Assembly (NCBI RefSeq): GCF_013282625.1
Contig: NZ_CP054020.1
Span: 1,240,001 to 1,304,000, forward strand
Direction of reading: 5' to 3'
DNA: 64,000 nucleotides
Origin: Thiomicrorhabdus xiamenensis
Lineage (GTDB): Bacteria > Pseudomonadota > Gammaproteobacteria > Thiomicrospirales > Thiomicrospiraceae
A program made the translations under genes and the position numbers. This document shows, piece by piece, positions 22,590 through 25,196 of this stretch (the first letter of the stretch is position 1; every line of letters starts with the position of its first letter). Below the pieces are notes generated by a model, which saw only the letters and a program-made list of their open reading frames with translations, was not told the DNA's origin and did not search any database.

Positions 22590-23165
22590 ATGCAGAGACT
22601 TTACAAGCAATCAATAGCGCTGGTGTTGTGCTTGATAACCGGCGGCGGATTGGTTTTTTTGAGTGGTTGTTCGACACAGCCGGAGCAACCGGTTGCCGAA
22701 GAAAAAGTTGAATACAGTACTTTTTCCGGGTTGCGGGAGTACGGCACTCATAACGGTTATGAGGTATTGACGCCAGAGAAACTGCAAAGTTGCATGGAAA
22801 TGCAGGCCAGTTTCGAGCAACAGAAAAATGCGATTAAAGACTTACAGGCCTCAATAGCTTTGCAAAGAGAGCAGGTTATCGAGCAGAATCAGGAAATCGC
22901 ACAAATCAAACAGGAAATAGATAAAGAGCAAACGCGCTCTTTGGTCGAAAAGGCGAATTATGAGCAGCACAATGCGCTGTTAGAGCAATACAATCAGAAG
23001 GTGACAGCCTTGCAAGAGAAACTGGTCGGTTATAACAATATGTTAGAAAAATATAATCAGATGAGCTTGTCTTACAATGCCGGAGTGACTTCGTTTAATG
23101 AAGAGTGTGCAATCGATAAAAGAATCTATCCACTCGATCTCAAAGAAATTTCGGTTCGGCATTAA
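22590..23165 (+). CDS. Coiled-coil lipoprotein of unknown function
   Basis: 191 aa. Signal peptide with a hydrophobic core (IALVLCLITGGGLVFLSG) and lipobox LSGC, so C27 would be the lipidated residue after cleavage by signal peptidase II. Residues about 70-155 are rich in Gln/Glu/Lys heptads and predicted coiled coil by eye, followed by a short tail with one Cys. The ribosome binding site is a very purine-rich GGGGAGGGG at 22576-22584. It is separated from the ZIP-like gene by 186 bases. I do not recognise the family; a periplasmic scaffold role is only a guess. Confidence 0.7.
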   Translation: MQRLYKQSIALVLCLITGGGLVFLSGCSTQPEQPVAEEKVEYSTFSGLREYGTHNGYEVLTPEKLQSCMEMQASFEQQKNAIKDLQASIALQREQVIEQNQEIAQIKQEIDKEQTRSLVEKANYEQHNALLEQYNQKVTALQEKLVGYNNMLEKYNQMSLSYNAGVTSFNEECAIDKRIYPLDLKEISVRH

Positions 23166-23351: not shown

Positions 23352-25196
23352 TTGCTTGAATCTGTTGCTGTACAAGCATTCTGGATTGGTATTATCAGTG
23401 CGGTTTCTCTACCGTTAGGCGCGTTGGTTACTTATGTTTGGCAGCCGGGGCAACGCCATATTGCGTTGCTGATGGCATTTGGTGCCGGAGCATTGCTATT
23501 TGCACTTACCATTGATCTTTTTGCACCTATGCTGAATTCAGGTATGGCATTAACGGTCAGTGTTGGGGCGATTATCGGTAGCTTGGTCTATTTGGGATTG
23601 AACTACCTGCTAAACCAAAAGGGTGGTTTTTTACGCAAGCGTGCGACGACCTTGCAGTTTTTCCGTAATCGTGTCCGCCGGCAACGAACTGAAATGTTGC
23701 GCTCTTTGAAGCGCCTGAATATTTTTCACTCACTGGACGAAAAAAGTCTTCACCAATTGGTTGCGGCAATCGATGTGGTTGAGGTGAAGGCAGGACAGGT
23801 TATCTATCATCACGGCGACCGTGCCGGGTCTTTTTATGTTTTGTGTGAAGGCGTGGTATCGATTCTCGACCCGCAAAAACATCTGCAGAAAATTATTCAG
23901 TTGGAAAAGGGCGATACATTCGGACGCATGGCCTTTTTTACAGGATTGAATAATGCAACCATGGCGATTGCCAAATCCGACTGTGTCTTGTGGTGTGTTG
24001 ATTATCACTGTATCAACGATGTGTTACAGGAAAGTTCGGAACTCTATCAAACGTTACTCGATTTTTATGTTCAAGAAAGTCGCTATAACACAGAGTTACT
24101 GGAGTATTTGCAACAGCGTCACTTCTTTTCCCTGCAGCAGGCGCAGGAATATCTACGCGACATTCAAGCACATCTGTTGCAGTATCGGGAGCTTGAATCG
24201 CATCATTACCCTGAACACGAATTGAATTTTTCTCTGTTCAAACTGGCTCAGCGACTGCCATGGATTAAGTCGCTTCCTGAAGAAGATTTGCAGCTGTTTG
24301 CCAGAGGCTTTGAATGGCGTACGCTGAAAGCGGGTGATACCTTGTATAAAGGTCGTGTGCACTCCGACCAGCTGTATTGGTTGGAAGAAGGGGTCGTCAA
24401 TTATTGGAATCCGCACGATAAAACCGGCTTGATACAAACGCATTCCGGTGGGGATTTTTTCGGTGTCCGGGCATTTTTGCTTGGCGCTAAGGAAGCGATG
24501 ACGGTTGAGGCCAAAACAGATATCGAATATTGGGTTCTGAAAAGAAATGTCTTTGCCCAGTTGCTTAAACAGTCCGAAGCGCTGAGAAGCGTACTGAAGA
24601 AATTCATCAAAAACGATGCTATCGACACTTATCTGGTTGAAAATCAAAATTTATCAACCCCTCAGGCGCACATCTGGTTGAATCAGACCGTTCGCCACCT
24701 TTGGCCTGATCGATTGCCGAATCTGTCCGAATGGCAGGATCCGGTCCTGCCGAAGCATACTGCCTATCTGGCCATATGGCTCGGTATCTTTCTGGATGGG
24801 ATCCCAGAATCACTGACGATCGGCGGCCTGATGACTTTGGAGTCGGCAGTCAGTTTGAGCCTGATTATGGGGCTGTTTTTATCCAACTTTCCCGAGGCGT
24901 TATCGAGTTCAGCCAGTATGCGTGCGCAAGGCATTCCTTTTGTGAGAATTTTTATGGCCTGGTTCAGCTTGATGCTCTTTACTGGTGTTGGCGCCGCTTT
25001 CGGTGTGGTCTTTCTGCACGACGCGGACGATGCGACTTTCGCCTTGATAAACGGTATGGCTGCCGGCGCCATGTTGACGGTCATTGCTGAAACCATGCTG
25101 CCCGAGGCTTATCATAAAGGAGGCTCTATTATCGGTTTTATTACCTTGCTGGGCTTTCTGGCGGCACTACTGTTTAAGGCGATCGAAACGACCTGA
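23352..25196 (+). CDS. ZIP-type metal transporter with two inserted cyclic-nucleotide-binding domains
   Basis: 614 aa. Three N-terminal membrane helices (about 5-85, with LPLGALVTYVW and LLMAFGAGALLFALTIDLF as in ZIP TM1-TM2) are followed by a roughly 390-residue cytoplasmic insert. It holds two cNMP-binding beta-rolls, one from about 115 to 235 (GQVIYHHGDRAGSFYVLCEG) and a more diverged one from about 310 to 430 (GDTLYKGRVHSDQLYWLEEG). The remaining helices (about 475-612) carry WLGIFLDGIPESL, FLSNFPEAL and AETMLPEA, matching the metal-site helices of ZIP proteins, although the TM4 His is absent. The start is a TTG at 23352 after GGGGGAAGG. Likely an inner-membrane transporter gated or tuned by a nucleotide. 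Confidence 0.72.
   Translation: MLESVAVQAFWIGIISAVSLPLGALVTYVWQPGQRHIALLMAFGAGALLFALTIDLFAPMLNSGMALTVSVGAIIGSLVYLGLNYLLNQKGGFLRKRATTLQFFRNRVRRQRTEMLRSLKRLNIFHSLDEKSLHQLVAAIDVVEVKAGQVIYHHGDRAGSFYVLCEGVVSILDPQKHLQKIIQLEKGDTFGRMAFFTGLNNATMAIAKSDCVLWCVDYHCINDVLQESSELYQTLLDFYVQESRYNTELLEYLQQRHFFSLQQAQEYLRDIQAHLLQYRELESHHYPEHELNFSLFKLAQRLPWIKSLPEEDLQLFARGFEWRTLKAGDTLYKGRVHSDQLYWLEEGVVNYWNPHDKTGLIQTHSGGDFFGVRAFLLGAKEAMTVEAKTDIEYWVLKRNVFAQLLKQSEALRSVLKKFIKNDAIDTYLVENQNLSTPQAHIWLNQTVRHLWPDRLPNLSEWQDPVLPKHTAYLAIWLGIFLDGIPESLTIGGLMTLESAVSLSLIMGLFLSNFPEALSSSASMRAQGIPFVRIFMAWFSLMLFTGVGAAFGVVFLHDADDATFALINGMAAGAMLTVIAETMLPEAYHKGGSIIGFITLLGFLAALLFKAIETT

Follow-up and report, generated by a model that had tools for sequence, protein, structure and literature searches.

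What turns ZIP transporters on and off within the membrane is poorly understood, and the loop that joins their third and fourth transmembrane helices (TM3 and TM4) is usually disordered and difficult to study. A gene of Thiomicrorhabdus xiamenensis, found in a window of 64,000 nucleotides (contig NZ_CP054020.1, positions 1,240,001 to 1,304,000; coordinates below are those of this whole stretch), encodes a ZIP-fold protein in which this loop is occupied by two domains of the cyclic nucleotide-binding (cNMP) type. This raises the question of whether the protein is a membrane-bound nucleotide sensor, as an initial annotation had proposed, or an ion transporter under a different kind of control.

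The gene and its neighbourhood

The gene lies on the forward strand, with a purine-rich stretch (AGGGGGAAGG) immediately 5' of its TTG start at 23352:

23352..25196, + strand: whole gene, ZIP-fold protein interrupted by two cNMP-type domains (614 aa, TTG start)

This ORF is a real gene that codes for a single protein and is not an artefact, since it has full-length orthologues and is under strong purifying selection. Within the family, full-length orthologues with the same two-domain architecture were found at 43-48% identity, and comparison with the 98%-identical orthologue of Thiomicrorhabdus sp. 6S3-12 (L002) gave an overall dN/dS of 0.022 (0.000 for TM1-3, 0.053 for the linker and domain 1, 0.013 for domain 2 and 0.006 for TM4-8). 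It is also the sole ZIP-like gene detected in a search of its own genome. The genes purB and acnB and a lipoprotein gene flank the ZIP gene only here and at the nearest orthologue, and neighbours vary at the other orthologues; because the flanking genes differ in this way, no functional link can be drawn from the gene neighbourhood, and no conserved neighbour hinting at a substrate, signal or partner was found among the orthologue loci compared. The lipoprotein upstream of the ZIP gene (22590-23165, + strand) is a coiled-coil protein that is also present at L002 and L003, and is not found beside other orthologues.

A ZIP fold interrupted between TM3 and TM4

The membrane part of the protein is split in two, and a basic linker follows the first of its segments:

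23364..23642, + strand: ZIP-like TM1-TM3 (residues 5-97), identified by hhalign with this part alone
23643..23705, + strand: basic linker after TM3 (residues 98-118), identified by charge count
24753..25187, + strand: ZIP-like TM4-TM8 (residues 468-612), identified by PF02535, phmmer matches to BbZIP and hhalign

The assignment to the ZIP fold rests on profiles, because the AlphaFold model, which had as input only the window protein and its 98% orthologue, is unusable when built from two near-identical sequences (mean pLDDT 34.6, pTM 0.19). In hhalign comparisons, TM1-3 alone matched a short-loop ZIP-like subfamily (alignment A3) with an E-value of 3e-12 and the GufA-branch ZIPs (alignment A4) with 9.5e-7, the corresponding values for TM4-8 being 2e-31 and 3.8e-10. 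Once both segments were spliced, omitting residues 98/99-465, these values became 1.5e-43 (over 234 columns) and 2e-15 (over 232 columns), respectively. When searched with phmmer against PDB sequences, residues 475-608 match BbZIP structures (E 2e-7 to 2e-6), and a search of the PDB sequences with the profile of the short-loop subfamily returned chance matches only and no ZIP. The Pfam profile PF02535 gives 30.4 bits over residues 470-593 of the window protein, slightly below its curated cut-off of 35.1, and the orthologue L039 exceeds the cut-offs of both Pfam families involved (38.3 bits for PF02535 and 96.6 bits for PF00027). At profile level, TM1-3 and TM4-8 together are an eight-helix ZIP fold. 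Six of the eight helices give a hydropathy peak; the polar TM4 and TM5 fall below the threshold and were placed via the alignment.

The first segment contains an invariant MAFGAGALL and an invariant D55 in TM2, and it ends in a positively charged GGFLRKR. Across the orthologues, conservation is highest in the membrane half, with mean pairwise identities of 0.70 and 0.74 for its two parts versus 0.45 and 0.48 for the two cNMP-type domains.

The insert is placed after the basic tail of TM3, at a position where members of the short-loop subfamily have a loop of about 10-30 residues, and the TM3-TM4 gap of about 380 residues holds two folded-type domains. Residues 88-118 contain 10 K/R versus 1 D/E, and because this flank is so strongly basic, the positive-inside rule argues for a cytoplasmic insert. 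In BbZIP, alpha3 and alpha7 belong to Domain II (the scaffold) and alpha4 and alpha5 to Domain I (the moving transport domain), and the two domains slide past each other (PMC9873690); since TM3 belongs to Domain II and TM4 to Domain I, the insert joins two halves that move. In the plant ZIP IRT1, the TM3-TM4 loop has been described as a regulatory platform (PMC10152663).

The general architecture proposed by the initial annotation, a ZIP fold whose TM3-TM4 loop carries two cNMP-type domains, was thus recovered by Pfam, phmmer and hhalign, although with PF02535 below its cut-off in the window protein itself. The first three helices do precede the insert, but the C-terminal half carries TM4-TM8 rather than just a last helix, and the separation, given there as about 390 residues, is large as described and closer to 380.

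The inserted domains have lost the canonical cassette residues

Both domains satisfy the PF00027 beta-roll profile (110.5 bits summed, with a cut-off of 27.5 that each passes by itself), and their phmmer matches among PDB sequences are the regulatory domains of PKA and PKG:

23778..24032, + strand: cNMP-type domain 1 (residues 143-227), PF00027 63.5 bits; cassette FGRMAFFTGLNNATMA, with Glu replaced by Arg192 and Arg by Asn201
24318..24572, + strand: cNMP-type domain 2 (residues 323-407), PF00027 55.4 bits; cassette FGVRAFLLGAKEAMTV, with Glu replaced by Val372 and Arg by Glu381

Canonical cNMP receptors require a Glu and an Arg in the cassette, E292 and R301 in PKG1 (PMC6940986). The register of these residues in domain 1 was taken from an alignment with PKG. 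In 13 aligned rows, which include the window protein and count the near-identical orthologue L003 as one row, the Glu is found in 0/13 for domain 1 and again in 0/13 for domain 2, while the Arg is absent from every row in domain 1 and present in one (L039) in domain 2. A search of the genome with PF00211 and PF01295 for class I / class III adenylate/guanylate cyclases detected none, the positive controls being recovered. The sensing of a cyclic nucleotide by the two domains is therefore not supported. The initial annotation had proposed that a nucleotide is sensed in cis and had itself named the loss of the cassette residues in homologues as evidence against that proposal; it is this loss that the alignment displays. 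Arg192, which occupies the Glu position in domain 1, is kept in 10 of the 13 rows, and its conservation could reflect an altered ligand instead of none. The orthologue L039 also gives a weak match to CNBH_CNNM2_C, below the cut-off (16.5 of 27 bits).

Domains 1 and 2 form a sister pair (hhalign E 2.5e-28; SH-aLRT 94 in the tree), which suggests that the pair arose via tandem duplication. Elsewhere in the window there is a small free cNMP-domain protein (1827-2324, + strand, 165 aa, PF00027 42.7 bits), correctly noticed near 1833 in the initial annotation, which served as a control for the cassette comparison: unlike the two inserted domains, its cassette IGEMSFFDRKPR keeps both the Glu and the Arg, although no class I/III cyclase was found in the genome.

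The metal site and the likely substrate

The binuclear site of BbZIP is formed by M99, H177, N178, E181, Q207, D208, E211 and E240 (PMC9873690). Three motifs of the window protein align with BbZIP residues in TM4, TM5 and TM7:

24792..24812, + strand: TM4 motif LDGIPES (residues 481-487); D482 corresponds to BbZIP H177, G483 to N178 and E486 to E181
24879..24902, + strand: TM5 motif LSNFPEAL (residues 510-517); S511 corresponds to BbZIP Q207, N512 to D208 and E515 to E211
25083..25106, + strand: TM7 motif IAETMLPE (residues 578-585); E580 corresponds to BbZIP H275 and T581 to E276

In addition, a Leu in TM2 aligns with M99 and T544 aligns with E240. The window protein shares with the GufA-branch ZIPs (SLC39; BbZIP, ZupT) the order and fold of the eight helices by profile, the xxxPE motifs of TM4 and TM5 with E181 and E211, and probably a TM3-TM4 loop with a regulatory role, but differs from them by the substitutions H177 to D, N178 to G, Q207 to S, D208 to N, E240 to T and M99 to L, and by a loop of about 380 residues with two folded domains where theirs is short or His-rich. 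Because just two of the eight site residues are identical (E181 and E211), transport of transition metals cannot be assumed.

The absence of the TM4 His, correctly noted in the initial annotation, is due to Asp482, but the suggestion made there, that the protein may for this reason have become a sensor instead of a transporter, is not supported. The same replacement of His177 by Asp, together with LDGIPES and LSNxPEG, is found in short ZIP-like relatives that carry no insert (from Deinococcus, Rhizobium, Comamonadaceae and others), so that the loss of the His is not damage caused by the fusion. Since Asp is typical of this subfamily and no other region of the protein is conserved as well as the membrane half, a transporter whose site is rich in carboxylates is likelier than a dead sensor, and we infer transport activity on these grounds, in whichever direction the ion would move. 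The residues D55, D482, E486 and E515 are invariant in the family alignment and, with E580 of TM7, point to a cation transporter whose site would consist of oxygen ligands only. Its substrate would probably be a divalent cation held by the carboxylates D482, E486 and E515, while D55 and E580 would lie along its path, and, because carboxylates are predicted to form the site, possibly an ion harder than Zn2+, such as Mn2+, Mg2+, Fe2+ or Ca2+.

Distribution and relatives

Of the 63 family genomes searched, 14 (the genome of the window included) contain a match to the membrane profile, nearly all as one long frame. In a metagenomic orthologue with 34% identity (L043:1495-3378, - strand), an in-frame TAA is found in domain 1, reflecting either decay or an assembly error. 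Among 369 genomes drawn from the class, matches at E <= 1e-15 revealed the fusion only in two near-identical genomes of the genus and in one further gammaproteobacterial genome (G314), and no additional case was found among the best loci read in a sample of 398 genomes from the phylum. Viral contigs and phage records contained no relative of the window protein, and on plasmids all matches were either ZIP-like proteins lacking the insert or different proteins with a cNMP domain, with no record spanning 80% of the query. Within the phylum, which the genome searches covered, the two-domain ZIP fusion is lineage-restricted. In the tree, the two-domain proteins form one clade (97/95) beside the short-loop subfamily and apart from the GufA ZIPs (100/99).

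The nearest relatives of the membrane half are the proteins of this short-loop subfamily, labelled 'ZIP family zinc transporter' (for instance WP_225523609.1 from Deinococcus and WP_203431459.1 from Rhizobium). They share LDGIPES, LSNxPE(G) and a basic end of TM3 with the window protein, but have no inserted domains and are about 240-250 aa long. The subfamily is broad (L050, L051, L052, L054-L058), has LDGIPES in place of HNxPEG, and its tested members score slightly below the PF02535 cut-off.

The fusion of G314 (L004) also has a cNMP-type domain in the TM3-TM4 loop, but only one, with the Glu and Arg of its cassette (FGEIALLSGGVRTATIRA) intact, and its TM4 motif, LDTIPGC, has no equivalent of E181. 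Its cNMP-type domain falls among other such domains, away from domains 1 and 2, the branch of its membrane part is long and of unsure placement, and neither part groups firmly with the window family, so this fusion may have originated by a separate insertion. It is found in 1 of 36 genomes of G314's own family, and its gene (L004:931-2346, + strand) adjoins an ORF resembling a ChrA-type transporter. Its sequence makes this single-domain protein a promising candidate for a ZIP that is genuinely gated by a nucleotide.

A model for the two-domain protein and its alternatives

The explanation that we favour, with a probability of roughly 0.55, is that the protein is a ZIP-fold ion transporter of the short-loop, carboxylate-site branch in which a tandem regulatory module has taken the place of the TM3-TM4 linker and works independently of cyclic nucleotides, in a manner analogous to the CNNM proteins. 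The cNMP domains of CNNM also have neither the same Glu nor the same Arg; they do not bind cAMP or cGMP, they form dimers, and Mg2+ transport requires them (PMC6940986). CNNM/CorC-type proteins thus resemble the window protein in being ion-transport membrane proteins with a cytoplasmic cNMP-fold domain devoid of the cassette residues, but they have an unrelated membrane fold (DUF21), a Bateman module and a single C-terminal domain rather than an inserted tandem. In the likeliest reading, the tandem would restrain or gate the elevator of a cation transporter without the involvement of a nucleotide. In such a model, the pair of cyclic-nucleotide-binding homology domains would occupy the cytoplasmic TM3-TM4 linker, on the covalent connection from the scaffold (Domain II) to the elevator (Domain I), where it could act as a clamp, a dimerisation or a docking module, setting the extent or the timing of the elevator movement. 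Control would come from some ligand or partner, but not from cAMP or cGMP bound in the canonical way, which would parallel the CNNM mediators of Mg2+ transport. The more specific proposal that this scaffold-to-elevator module gates transport allosterically in cis via a non-canonical ligand is put forward tentatively.

Gating by a cyclic nucleotide after all, with at least one domain binding it non-canonically and controlling transport in cis, as the initial annotation had it, would agree with the PF00027 scores, well over the cut-off in both domains, with the cassette retained in the single-domain fusion of G314, and with precedents among secondary transporters fused to cNMP-type domains, such as SLC9C1, which is reported to be gated by cyclic-nucleotide binding (PMC6052114), and the MFS-CNBD fusions (PMC10710835). 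These precedents, however, have other transporter folds, whereas the cassette residues of the window protein are lost (Glu in 13/13 rows of both domains and Arg in nearly all), the genome search found no class I/III cyclase and the G314 domain falls outside the group of domains 1 and 2, so that we regard such gating as distinctly unlikely. It is also unlikely that the protein is a ZIP-derived receptor without transport activity, whose membrane part detects an ion and whose cytoplasmic domains relay the signal to a partner protein. The substitution of six of the eight BbZIP site residues and a large insert, cytoplasmic by its charge, would fit such a receptor, but the substitutions, including His to Asp, are common to the insert-free subfamily and hence not a consequence of the fusion, conservation peaks in the membrane half, and there is neither an output domain nor a conserved partner gene adjoining.

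A metal-sensing feedback, in which the inserted domains would bind the transported metal, for example at the HHxD turn of residues 153-156, and shut transport, draws on a nearly invariant H153 and an invariant D156 (alignment A2); H154 is variable, though, and L039 reads QQGD at this turn, making this feedback very improbable. Finally, an artefact, whether misassembly or the chance joining of a ZIP gene to cNMP-domain genes, has nothing in its favour except that the architecture is rare beyond the family, and was rejected, being contradicted by the full-length orthologues in further genomes of the family, in nearly all of which the gene is one open frame, and by the dN/dS of 0.022.

Implications

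Fusions of transporters to cNMP-type domains were already known from SLC9C1, MFS and CNNM proteins; such a fusion in a ZIP is new within the open-licence PMC literature searched, where no ZIP with a cNMP-type domain is described. The two-domain protein also brings into view a common ZIP-like subfamily whose site is acidic where other ZIPs have a His, which databases label as 'zinc transporter' and whose substrate is putative. Since the loop of the window protein consists of two folded, purifiable domains that link the scaffold to the moving domain, the two-domain fusion is experimentally tractable and would make allostery in a ZIP elevator directly testable.
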